IMG/VR virus record: IMGVR_UViG_3300042923_000617
Coordinates: 1-41,918 of that record
Length of the DNA stretch: 41,918 nucleotides
Strand: one strand, 5' to 3'
Source: a virus
Of the stretch, positions 369 through 39,161 are shown piece by piece. Below the pieces are notes generated by a model, which was given only the letters and a program-made list of their open reading frames with translations, made no database searches and was not told where the DNA came from. A program made the translations under genes and the position numbers. Within the stretch, counting starts at the first letter, position 1, and every line of letters starts with the position of its first letter.

Positions 369-1307
369 TCACACCTGCGCGATCAGGATCGAACCGTTGC
401 TCAGCGTCGAGGACATCGTGTGCGCGACCCCATCGACCGTGAACACGTCGCCGCGAGACACTGTATCGGACCACACGCACTGGACGCCGATCAGTTCCCC
501 GATATGGGAGGCGAGCCCCGACGTCCAGTTGCCGCCACCCGCCGCGACGATGAACGGCGCCGCGGTAACTTGATTATCAAGCTCCGACGCAGCCGTCCCT
601 GCACGACCATTCATGCGCATGGTGTTCGGGCCGACGATGCAGTGCGACGACCATGAGACACTCGTCATCTTCGGCACTCGGGTCAGCGCCGCAGCGGTGG
701 ACCCTGCAGCCGTGCCCGAGTTCCGATCCGAGGTTCCGGCCATGCGGACGGTGATGAGCGGGAACAGGTCGGCGCCCGCGTGTGCGGCGTGTGCAGCGGT
801 TGGCTCGAAGAACCCACAGTACGACACCTGAGTGCCTTCCGTAGAAGACAGGAGCACCACCCGGTCGCGGGTAACCGACGCGTCGATAACGAATCCCGCC
901 GTCGTCAGCGGCGTGTCCAACTGCGTGTAAGTGCTAGAGTTCGCCCAGCCCGACTCGAGCCCGAGCGCCGTGGCACCAAACCGCGAATACGTTGTCGCGT
1001 CGAGGGTGGTGTTGCTCGCCGAGTACGGGCCGCGGGTGGCGAGGTCCGTTGCTGCGTCGTACCCCTCGAACGGCGTCAGCAGCAGACCCGTCGCGGTCCC
1101 GGTGGTCGGGTAAGAGATGTCGAGGAACCAGTCGAGGCTGTACGTGTTCCCCGCCGCGGCGGACTTGTACACCTTGTGCGTCCGCGCACCGATCACGACC
1201 GTGTCCTCGAGCGTCCAGCCGAGCGCGAGGAGCTTCGTCGCGAGCGCCGTGTGAACCAGCGGGCCGGGGTTCGCGTCCGCCGCGATCGTCTCTTCCCAGT
1301 ACGTCAT
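369..1307 (-). CDS. Minor tail / tail-tip protein
   Basis: This 312-residue protein starts with ATG at 1307, overlapping the stop of the collagen-like fibre gene (ATGA). The N-terminal third looks like a compact domain with many aromatic residues (residues 1-75, MTYWEETIAADANPG onward). The remainder is rich in Thr, Ser, Ala and Gly, as in beta-sandwich tail proteins. The place in the tail operon after the fibre gene suggests a receptor-binding or tail-tip role. No catalytic motif is visible. The function is inferred from context only. Confidence 0.7.
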   Translation of the reverse strand: MTYWEETIAADANPGPLVHTALATKLLALGWTLEDTVVIGARTHKVYKSAAAGNTYSLDWFLDISYPTTGTATGLLLTPFEGYDAATDLATRGPYSASNTTLDATTYSRFGATALGLESGWANSSTYTQLDTPLTTAGFVIDASVTRDRVVLLSSTEGTQVSYCGFFEPTAAHAAHAGADLFPLITVRMAGTSDRNSGTAAGSTAAALTRVPKMTSVSWSSHCIVGPNTMRMNGRAGTAASELDNQVTAAPFIVAAGGGNWTSGLASHIGELIGVQCVWSDTVSRGDVFTVDGVAHTMSSTLSNGSILIAQV

Positions 1308-3254: not shown

Positions 3255-4357
3255 CAGACGGCCTCCTCTTCAATCAGCAACGAGACCTCGAGGCCCACAT
3301 CCGCAGACAACCCGATCAGCCGGTATGTCTTCGACGCGTCAGGCAGGAACGGTTCATCCGCCTCGATAACCACAGTCACCGACGACCCCAACACCAGATC
3401 AGCAGGGGATACCACCGTCGCCATCACCCGAATGTCGGGCTGCACGGTCGGGTCCTTGAACGCCCGCACACGCTCCTTCGCCAACTGCGACGCGTGCTCG
3501 TTCGTCTTCACCATCTTCCACGCGACAACATCATCACGGGCCGGGATCGAAGCGACCGGAACCCCCGGGGTACCACCGACCACCATCTCGGCGCCGTAGT
3601 TCTGCCCCACCCCGAACACACCCGTAACCTGCTTCTGCGCGTTCTCATTCACCGTGTACGACGACACACCATGCGTCTTCGTCGTCAGATCGAACGTGAA
3701 CGAACCACCCGTCAACGCCCCAGCCCGCACCACCCACTCAAGCGTGTCCGTGCCAGACCATTGCGGAGAGAACTCCACATCCGGGCCACCGTCCATCTCC
3801 TGAATCTCGTCAAGGATGTCCGCGACCCGCTGGAAGTTGTAGTTCTCATACGTGGTCGAGAACGACCCCGCCGTGGACAGGGACGGGAGTACCAGTGGCA
3901 GGGAGTAGTCCGCGCCGCCCACCGGTCCCGTCGTGCCCGCCTCCAACACCAACCCCAGGGTTGACACCAGCGACTTGCTCGAGATCGTCAGCTTCCCCGG
4001 GATACCCGCCGACTCGTCCTCCCAATAGGAGTTCTCACCGAACGGCAACCGGTACAGGAACAACGCCCGCAGATCGACGTGCTGAACCGTCAACACCTTC
4101 GTGTCATACGAGTACGGGCGCCCCGTGATGAGCCCCGCATACACGGGTTCGTCATCCCAGCACACCACCAGTGTCCGGTCCCACGCGATCGTCGCATTCC
4201 GCCACTCAGCCCGCGTGTGCACCCCATCCCCGAGGGTGAACACGTGCTGCCCTGACCCCGCCGTATTCAAACGACGCGACCACGAACCACCAGCCGGCTC
4301 AACCTCAAGGATCTTCGCACCCGTGATCGTGTCGCAAAACCAATACGACCACGTCAT
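3254..4357 (-). CDS. Minor tail protein, ReqiPepy6 gp37-like (Tal-like)
   Basis: This 367-residue protein follows the distal tail gene and precedes the spike. Its start, MTWSYWFCDTITGAKILEV, and length match the siphovirus ReqiPepy6 gp37-like family of tail-tip proteins, which occupy the place of the tail-associated (Tal) baseplate hub. No peptidase or lytic domain is visible at the C-terminus. The ATG at 4357 overlaps the stop of the distal tail gene by four bases. Confidence 0.75.
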   Translation of the reverse strand: MTWSYWFCDTITGAKILEVEPAGGSWSRRLNTAGSGQHVFTLGDGVHTRAEWRNATIAWDRTLVVCWDDEPVYAGLITGRPYSYDTKVLTVQHVDLRALFLYRLPFGENSYWEDESAGIPGKLTISSKSLVSTLGLVLEAGTTGPVGGADYSLPLVLPSLSTAGSFSTTYENYNFQRVADILDEIQEMDGGPDVEFSPQWSGTDTLEWVVRAGALTGGSFTFDLTTKTHGVSSYTVNENAQKQVTGVFGVGQNYGAEMVVGGTPGVPVASIPARDDVVAWKMVKTNEHASQLAKERVRAFKDPTVQPDIRVMATVVSPADLVLGSSVTVVIEADEPFLPDASKTYRLIGLSADVGLEVSLLIEEEAV

Positions 4358-18451: not shown

Positions 18452-18799
18452 TCAGGTGTGCCAGCCTCCGGGCTGGTGTTCTGCTGTGGATGTGTCGTGA
18501 CAGGGCTTACACAGGCCTCGGCCAGCAGCAGGGTCGTTGGGGTTGAGACCGAGCTCGATCAACTCTTTGCGTGACCGTGGGTAGTGGTCCGCTACGGTGG
18601 CGAATGCGCGGCTGCAGAGGACGCAGATGGGGTCTCGTGTGAGTACGGCTGTGCGGAATGCCTGGTGTCCTGGGGTTGTGTAGCCCCGGTCTCGTGCCGT
18701 GCCGCGTGCCCTGTCCGCTTGGCGTCGGTGTTGGGCGCATCGTGTCCCCTCGGATGTGGGGTAGATGGTTGGGCATCCGGGTTGTGAGCACACGCGCAT
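18452..18799 (-). CDS. HNH endonuclease (packaging-type)
   Basis: This 115-residue protein starts MRVCSQPGCPTIYPTSEGTR behind GAGGTACAC. The core has CVLCSRAFATVADHYPRSRK, then DPAAGRGLCKPCHDTSTAEH, the common short actinophage HNH nuclease encoded next to terminase. In HK97-like phages such an HNH protein is required with terminase for DNA cutting. Of the two HNH genes here, this is the better candidate for that role. Confidence 0.85.
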   Translation of the reverse strand: MRVCSQPGCPTIYPTSEGTRCAQHRRQADRARGTARDRGYTTPGHQAFRTAVLTRDPICVLCSRAFATVADHYPRSRKELIELGLNPNDPAAGRGLCKPCHDTSTAEHQPGGWHT

Positions 18800-18828
18800 G
18801 TGTACCTCGGGGGTCGAAAGGGAATGTG

Positions 18829-18902
18829 CGATCCTGACCGGACTTGAACCGGCGACCTCTGCCGTGACAGGGCAGCGCTTTAACCAACTGAGCTACAGAA
18901 CC
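18829..18902 (-). tRNA. tRNA-Asp (anticodon GTC)
   Basis: The 74-base minus-strand gene folds as a cloverleaf. The acceptor GGTTCTG pairs with CAGGATC (two G-U pairs), the anticodon stem CTGCC/GGCAG holds the loop CTGTCAC with anticodon GTC, and the T-arm GCCGG-TTCAAGT-CCGGT is regular. The discriminator base is G, and CCA is not encoded. It lies between the HNH genes and the early-region boundary. It could supplement host decoding of GAC codons. Confidence 0.93.
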
Positions 18903-19059
18903 AAGGGGGCGTCGGATTCTCCATCCTCGATTAAGCAGGCAGCGCACCTGCGCCCCAAAATGTCAGCGTCCCCTGCAAGGGCTGGTAGCTGACCGTGTGC
19001 CCTACACCTCGCATCGGCACCTTGTCGTGAACCCCGTTTGCAGGCGGGAGCGAGGTATG
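18903..19059. other. Spacer between tRNA-Asp and the tRNA-like RNA
   Basis: The 157 bases between the two RNA genes contain no convincing reading frame, no further cloverleaf and no clear promoter. Together with both RNAs it forms a non-coding stretch of about 430 bases (18800-19229) at the boundary of early and late regions. A packaging site or late promoter could be here, but I see no sequence that proves it. Confidence 0.5.
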
Positions 19060-19149
19060 TGGAGCTGCCGGTAATCGAAACCGGTGTGTCCGTATTAGAG
19101 AAAACGCGAAACGCGTGGACTCTAATATCGGGCCTTTCCTGTCAGCCCC
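19060..19149 (-). ncRNA. tRNA-like RNA with alanine identity ends and no anticodon arm
   Basis: On the minus strand GGGGCTG (19143-19149) pairs with CAGCTCC (19061-19067), including a G3-U70 wobble. It is followed by A73. Directly before the 3' strand is a perfect T-arm, CCGGT-TTCGATT-ACCGG. G3-U70 with A73 are the alanyl-tRNA synthetase identity elements, and both ends match tRNA-Ala and tmRNA ends. The D and anticodon arms are replaced by a rod: an 8-bp stem TATTAGAG/CTCTAATA, a 3x3 internal loop, and ACGCG-TTT-CGCGT. This is how the tRNA-like domain of tmRNA looks, but no tag frame is present. CCA is not encoded. Confidence 0.6.
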
Positions 19150-19180
19150 GTGGTGTGGTTTGTGTCGTCACCGCGATGTG

Positions 19181-38993: not shown

Positions 38994-39033
38994 TGGTGCA
39001 CCCCCTGGGACTCGAACCCAGAACCCACTGGTA
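38994..39033 (-). other. attP: attP core (40 bases of a tRNA 3' half)
   Basis: The minus strand reads as the end of a tRNA: part of the anticodon stem (ACCAGT), variable region GGGTT, T-arm CTGGG-TTCGAGT-CCCAG, acceptor GGGGTGC, A and CCA. The upstream half of the tRNA is absent. The integrase presumably recombines it with the host gene and rebuilds its 3' end. The host tRNA might be tRNA-Lys, but the anticodon is not contained in the phage sequence. Confidence 0.82.
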
Positions 39034-39161
39034 AAGGGTGAAAGTTGGACTGACCTGGATATTTATGGCCTGACCGGAGGTTTGTGGACACTAGCGCCCG
39101 AGGGTCAGGTAGACCGAGATTTACCGAGATTCCGCGGGAGTCCGCTCGTTGGACGGATTGA

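Follow-up and report, generated by a model that had tools for sequence, protein, structure and literature searches.

What is an RNA that carries the acceptor end of a tRNA-Ala or tmRNA, has no anticodon arm, and is encoded by a phage? The question is raised by positions 19060 to 19149 (minus strand) of an IMG/VR virus record, which is 41,918 bases long and is called the window here. The window carries tailed-phage genes (terminase, portal, tape measure, endolysin), and the nearest named phage by terminase is Streptomyces phage Kromp (52%).

Sequence and Predicted Fold of the RNA

The RNA is 90 nt long and reads, from 5' to 3' on the minus strand (19149-19060), GGGGCUG ACAGGAAAGGC CCG A UAUUAGAG UCC ACGCG UUU CGCGU UUU CUCUAAUA CGG ACACA CCGGU UUCGAUU ACCGG CAGCUCC A. 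A first-pass annotation, made from the letters alone, had described ends of the tRNA-Ala or tmRNA type, and these are present (all positions on the minus strand): the acceptor strand GGGGCUG (19143..19149) pairs with CAGCUCC (19061..19067), placing G3 (19147) opposite U70 (19063), A73 lies at 19060, and the T-arm CCGGU-UUCGAUU-ACCGG (19068..19084) is canonical. CCA is not encoded; the next letters are ACAU. The D-loop counterpart ACAGGAAAGGC (19132..19142) is without a D-stem; it has GG in common with tmRNA, but UUCGAC is missing.

Neither the D-stem nor the anticodon arm of a tRNA-Ala was found in this RNA by ARAGORN, Rfam or folding, upholding the earlier description, and a rod (19090..19131, minus strand) is all that lies between the acceptor and T-arm parts. 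In the predicted fold the rod consists of 3 bp (CCG/CGG), a bulged A, 8 bp, a 3x3 internal loop, 5 bp and a UUU loop. The 8 bp, internal loop and 5 bp had been described as such; the CCG/CGG pairs and bulged A at the start have to be added, making the tmRNA-P2-like helix 11 bp long. The minimum free energy of the 90-nt RNA is -37.8 kcal/mol (z -4.91), and none of 200 shuffled sequences was equally stable. The rod sits where helix 2 of tmRNA and all beyond it would be: the 42 nt from the D-loop to the junction are entirely rod, and the resume codon, tag frame and pseudoknots PK1-PK4 are absent.

Relation to tmRNA

ARAGORN, and Rfam at gathering score, reported the tRNA-Asp at 18828-18902 alone in the window. 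At E <= 10, the sole tRNA- or tmRNA-type Rfam match at 19060-19149 was a weak, partial one to permuted tmRNA (13.2 bits); the Rfam tmRNA model RF00023 gave no match there, so its gathering score of 47 bits is not reached. While the window copy is undetected by the full-length model, other class members are matched with the interior deleted: RF00023 spans model positions 1-374 on L210, L212, L222, L236, L254 and L257 with 53-69 bits. The window's sister L106 (29 bits, E 2e-10) and L313 (32 bits) are likewise spanned over 1-374 but remain below the threshold, and in both cases RF00023 is the top model of the tRNA/tmRNA clan. The 5' end of L106, GGGGCUGAUCUGGAU, agrees with the tmRNA consensus. 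BLASTN searches with the RNA returned only tmRNA-type 3' ends from phages and no match from plasmids.

A class model trained on 14 short phage members, with the window branch excluded, picks 19060-19149 as the top site of the window (28.1 bits, E 6e-6); the next site scores 15.4 and the tRNA-Asp 11.6. The same model gives 27-30 bits, about as much as for the window copy, to loci of L323 that resemble tRNA-Ala and that we take to be ordinary tRNA-Ala genes. Because of these scores, the tmRNA origin of the window copy taken by itself is argued through the chain via L106 and L313.

With tmRNA the RNA shares the acceptor stem, G3-U70, A73, the T-arm, the missing D-stem and a P2-like helix; however, tmRNA has about 350 nt with resume codon, tag frame and pseudoknots, and the class RNAs have 77-108 nt without these. 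The likeness to a tmRNA tRNA-like domain without its message, as first described, is thus borne out, and a relationship to ssrA is supported by the end-to-end matches of the Rfam model to L106 and several class members. Judged by these comparisons, the RNA is on balance probably a derivative of tmRNA reduced to the tRNA-like domain (TLD), an estimate that covers this origin jointly with the role as a charged competitor discussed below.

Relatives in Viral Contigs and Cultured Phages

Viral contigs were scanned with two patterns. The first, in which the acceptor was fixed (GGGGCTGA-N48..78-T-arm-CAGCTCCA), found 54 contigs, all without D-stem and anticodon arm and 78 to 108 nt long; the ARAGORN parse of these matches was checked against a real tRNA-Ala control. 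The second pattern, rod motif plus T-arm with the acceptor stem left free, likewise found 54 contigs, nine of them in common with the first scan. Together the scans comprise 99 viral contigs, with RNAs of 77-108 nt. Unannotated copies lie within the tRNA arrays of the cultured Streptomyces phages BRock, Tomas, Alone3 and LuckySocke, and Microbacterium phage Quenya has an unannotated copy that adjoins a tRNA-Gln and an HNH gene and thus repeats the order seen in the window. GiJojo and pSt2308 match along the full 78 nt. One scan of the genome_contigs collection with the fixed acceptor pattern, which is blind to bacterial copies with other acceptor stems, yielded L313 as the single clear copy, lying in a phage region inside a Chloroflexota MAG; L323 and L363 were not counted as clear.

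Several matches were rejected as class members. Those in Nocardioidaceae chromosomes are, as we take them, 3' ends of ordinary tmRNA with a coincidental GGGGCTGA upstream; in L312, L327, L339 and L355 the pattern starts ahead of a tRNA-Ala; and the matches in Mendera and X1 look like the acceptor piece of a permuted two-piece tmRNA. Salinibacter phage SRUTV-1 (L365) has a tmRNA-like acceptor/T-arm end at 1437-1529, scored at 31.7 bits by the class model, which may belong to a two-piece tmRNA or to another TLD-type RNA.

Conservation of the Alanine Identity Elements

A G-U at the third pair confers alanine charging (PMC8363625), and G3-U70 is the alanyl-tRNA synthetase (AlaRS) determinant of tmRNA (PMC8363625, PMC3985003). 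The acceptor-free set contains 30 distinct sequences. Eleven different acceptor stems occur among them, and each sequence is paired at seven of seven positions. G1-C72, G2-C71, G3-U70 and A73 are each found in 30 of 30, and pairs 4, 5, 6 and 7 each show two to four Watson-Crick types. In the gapless subset (n = 14), double changes were found in 14 of 22 pairs, with a covariation score of 0.643 compared to 0.141 in shuffles; covariation was counted on sequences of equal length only, as differences in D-loop length otherwise misplace the acceptor. Since pairs 4-7 covary while G1-C72, G2-C71, G3-U70 and A73 never change, alanine charging appears to be selected in the class. CCA is encoded in only 3 of the 30 sequences, and therefore a host enzyme would need to add it in most cases.

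The Rod in Close Relatives

In the branch that includes the window the head of the RNA is fixed and the rods are hypervariable. Contig L128, whose terminase is 96% identical to that of the window, has both RNA ends identical letter for letter, with a rod that is unrelated yet pairs with itself. Across 16 distinct relatives of this branch, cognate rod halves pair with a mean of -17.0 kcal/mol, compared to -9.2 kcal/mol when combined with the halves of other members, and none of 20,000 permutations of the halves was as good as the cognate pairing. Between L218 and the window an A-U pair of the rod is exchanged for G-C in a compensatory manner. The exception is L250, where the RNA (3370-3460, minus strand) has rod halves from two different relatives that do not pair; this copy is perhaps a recombinant, an assembly chimera or a decaying copy. 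The acceptor GGGGCUG/CAGCUCC was found in 11 of 11 contigs of the branch retrieved without using the acceptor; in L127 it is altered to GGGCCGC/ACGGUCC, with G3-U70 retained.

Compensatory change in related phages, on which the first-pass annotation had proposed to judge the RNA, is strong both in the covariation of the class and in the pairing of the rod halves. Two of the findings named there as fatal, lack of conservation in relatives and a disrupted ordinary tRNA gene, were looked for and not seen. The RNA at 19060-19149 is neither a chance product nor a decayed tRNA.

Two Branches Differ in the Counterparts of tmRNA Bases That Contact SmpB

The tmRNA bases that contact SmpB are U17, G19, A15 and A334 in E. 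coli numbering (PMC8363625). Class I RNAs, which are 77-80 nt long, have a GGnUYGA D-loop in 29 of 30 sequences, either GGnUUCGAC itself or something close to it; the counterparts of U17 and G19 are kept in 29 of 30 and that of A334 within GGAC. The D-loop of the window branch reads GGAAAG (the tmRNA consensus of the region being GAucuGGaUUCGAC), and here the U17 and G19 counterparts are missing, so that only those of A15 and A334 are kept. Going by these bases, class I quite likely binds SmpB; for the window branch such binding is uncertain.

The RNA Is Part of a Variable Cassette

The RNA is preceded by a conserved leader (19150..19177, minus strand) consisting of a hairpin and CAAACCACACCAC, which in relatives is followed by this RNA, by a tRNA-Thr, or by a variant cassette that has a tRNA-Leu. 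After the leader follow, in the window, the tRNA-like RNA, a second structured RNA (18962..19059) directly 3' of A73, and a tRNA-Asp (GUC; 18828..18902; ARAGORN, Rfam) as the final RNA; just past the cassette lies an HNH endonuclease gene (18452..18799; PHROGs), all on the minus strand. The same leader is followed in L127 by a variant of the tRNA-like RNA, the second RNA and a tRNA-Asp, in L126 by a tRNA-Thr in place of the tRNA-like RNA and then the second RNA and a tRNA-Asn, in L128, L216, L224 and L252 by the tRNA-like RNA without second RNA and without tRNA-Asp, and in L129 by a different stretch with a tRNA-Leu. L106 has both the tRNA-like and the second RNA behind a leader different from that of the window. 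From this arrangement, the leader-flanked site is taken to be a swap-in cassette.

The second RNA is 74-77% identical to an intergenic stretch in the Microbacterium phages Lyell, Fork, Musetta and Erenyeager. Both of its hairpin stems covary, and the complementary loops CUGCAA and UUGCAG are invariant; because the loop pairs never vary, the data suggest a loop-loop contact rather than establish it. This RNA of about 100 nt is seemingly undescribed; copies are found in the window (18962-19059, minus strand), in L002 (3663-3760), in L106 (8347-8444), and in L126 and L127. In the Lyell group of Microbacterium phages it has no annotation and occurs by itself, preceded by a promoter-like sequence.

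Further non-coding modules recur at the cassette site: CAATGCGAGTGCCTGGGTTGTGCAAGCC..., CAGCGGTCGCGTGACTCTGCAAAAGCC... and TTTGCCGATAC...GGTCGGCTGA... They are located just past the tRNA-like RNA in L227, L237 and L243, also occur in L232, L250 and L255, and lie further downstream in L106, L126 and L214. The site seems to collect structured RNAs. In L227 the tRNA-like RNA and the module are followed by a short tRNA-like stretch (824-881, minus strand; GGCTGGTCAGAGTGGGAACCGCG...GGGTTCGAGTCCCGGCTGACCA). At about 60 nt, this stretch may be one more tRNA-like RNA of the armless type. Elsewhere in the window (38994-39040, minus strand) there is the 3' half of a tRNA, ending in GGGTTCTGGGTTCGAGTCCCAGGGGGTGCACCA, without its 5' half, which suggests an attP core derived from a tRNA gene and a temperate phage; no integrase was found among the window ORFs tested.

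Possible Functions

A decoy in trans-translation, one of the roles first considered for this RNA, has become the leading idea through the class comparison and the precedent of a TLD-only RNA of mycobacteriophage DS6A. We lean towards a TLD-only tmRNA derivative that would act as a charged competitor and dampen trans-translation. The RNA would be transcribed on the minus strand together with the neighbouring RNAs and trimmed in tRNA fashion, with CCA added by the host. Charging by AlaRS would be followed by binding of EF-Tu and, at least for the commoner form, of SmpB; the SmpB step is the least certain for the window branch, because most of the D-loop bases contacting SmpB are lost there. As resume codon, tag frame and pseudoknots are all missing, the charged RNA would compete with host alanyl-tmRNA for SmpB, for EF-Tu and for the ribosomes that stall on broken mRNA. 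Trans-translation would then be damped during infection, and phage proteins would be spared tagging, or stalled phage mRNAs spared decay.

The location of class copies within tRNA arrays of cultured phages provides supporting context. Together with SmpB and EF-Tu, a truncated tmRNA binds ribosomes (PMC8363625), and expression of the DS6A RNA in E. coli is reported to inhibit the tmRNA of the cell (PMC11915505). For a molecule similar to the DS6A RNA, inhibition is reported not to depend on charging and may come from titration of SmpB (PMC4131195). This independence of charging may be held against a charged competitor, and a pure SmpB sponge would not require G3-U70; because G3-U70 is invariant, we favour the charged ribosomal competitor over a passive sponge.

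The main rival is rescue without tagging, in which the alanyl-TLD with SmpB and EF-Tu would enter the stalled ribosome and take over the peptide, with release by other factors. We know of no release step for such a rescue by a TLD, and on the whole consider it unlikely. It would fit the invariant G3-U70 and A73 beside covarying pairs 4-7, which imply that charging matters, as it would not for a sponge, and message-less organelle tmRNAs have been suggested to be still helpful (PMC11915505), tagless rescue being proposed for the mitochondrial ones; however, the RNA of the DS6A type is reported to inhibit tmRNA in E. coli (PMC11915505), and the window branch retains only part of the SmpB pocket bases.

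Less probable again is a tRNA-like processing signal, cut by RNase P and the 3' tRNA nucleases to free the ends of the adjoining structured RNA. In the window as in L106, L126 and L127, A73 is followed immediately by the second RNA, an ordinary tRNA-Thr takes the position of the tRNA-like RNA in L126, and the second RNA of Lyell has its own promoter-like sequence, all of which would agree with such a signal. Yet the tRNA-like RNA occurs without the second RNA in L128, L216, L224, L252 and in the tRNA arrays of other phages, and processing alone leaves the invariance of G3-U70 unexplained.

The tRNA cassettes of phages are often linked to counter-defence, and a hypervariable rod on a fixed head could likewise be expected of a decoy whose targets are host defences or toxins aimed at tRNA or tmRNA, and not trans-translation as such; no host defence was identified in the present analysis, and we regard this as improbable.

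Phages often carry the 3' ends of tRNA and tmRNA genes as attP. That the RNA is a tRNA-Ala decaying after loss of its anticodon arm, or the attP remainder of a gene for tmRNA or tRNA, is highly improbable: actinobacterial tRNA-Ala has the identical acceptor stem GGGGCUG/CAGCUCC (L339) and a T-arm like it, and 25-base BLASTN matches in mycobacteriophages may be attP, but tRNA-Ala has a D-stem and anticodon arm whereas the window RNA cannot decode, divergent relatives maintain both acceptor strands, T-arm and paired rod with compensatory change, attP copies retain the 3' part only while here the 5' acceptor strand is present and paired, and tmRNA is the best match of the Rfam clan for L106 and L313.

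Known TLD-Only RNAs and Biological Meaning

The RNA had at first been thought a wholly new type, which is not supported, since the TLD-only phage tmRNA of DS6A, with its reported inhibition of tmRNA in E. coli, is already published (PMC4131195, PMC11915505). Both RNAs are phage-borne, contain little beyond the tRNA-like domain of tmRNA and have no tag frame. By description they differ in that DS6A was reported as a single case whereas the window RNA has many phage relatives, and in the 11-bp helix with an extra hairpin, the divergent D-loop and the hypervariable rod of the window RNA. The message-less tmRNAs of organelles (mitochondria, and plastids of Mallomonadaceae with about 65 bp; PMC11915505) also have a TLD without coding part; in contrast, it is the organelle that encodes them, and their proposed part is to help rescue, not to block it (PMC11915505). 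In Rfam 15 no family covers the TLD-only form, and one phage example of it was found in the literature available without subscription. The TLD-only kind is thus known; its breadth, the evidence for selected alanylation and the divergent long-rod branch were not found in that literature and appear to be new.

A wider picture, judged less likely than not, is drawn tentatively: a large overlooked phage family in which tmRNA has been cut to its chargeable head, its members acting on the ribosome as alanyl-RNAs, as a dead end or in tagless rescue, and not as SmpB sponges, with the long-rod branch of the window independent of SmpB or served by a rod-bound partner. The ribosomal role is proposed because the alanine identity pair is fixed while pairs 4-7 vary.

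Trans-translation is a conserved and often essential quality-control system of bacteria. The DS6A case, known for years, has passed for an oddity; the present data indicate that phages commonly carry TLD-only RNAs, which ARAGORN misses and which are left blank in the annotation even of cultured phages. A natural minimal alanyl-RNA would serve as a tool for studies of AlaRS, EF-Tu and SmpB, and the class makes it testable whether phages manipulate trans-translation by RNA rather than by protein.
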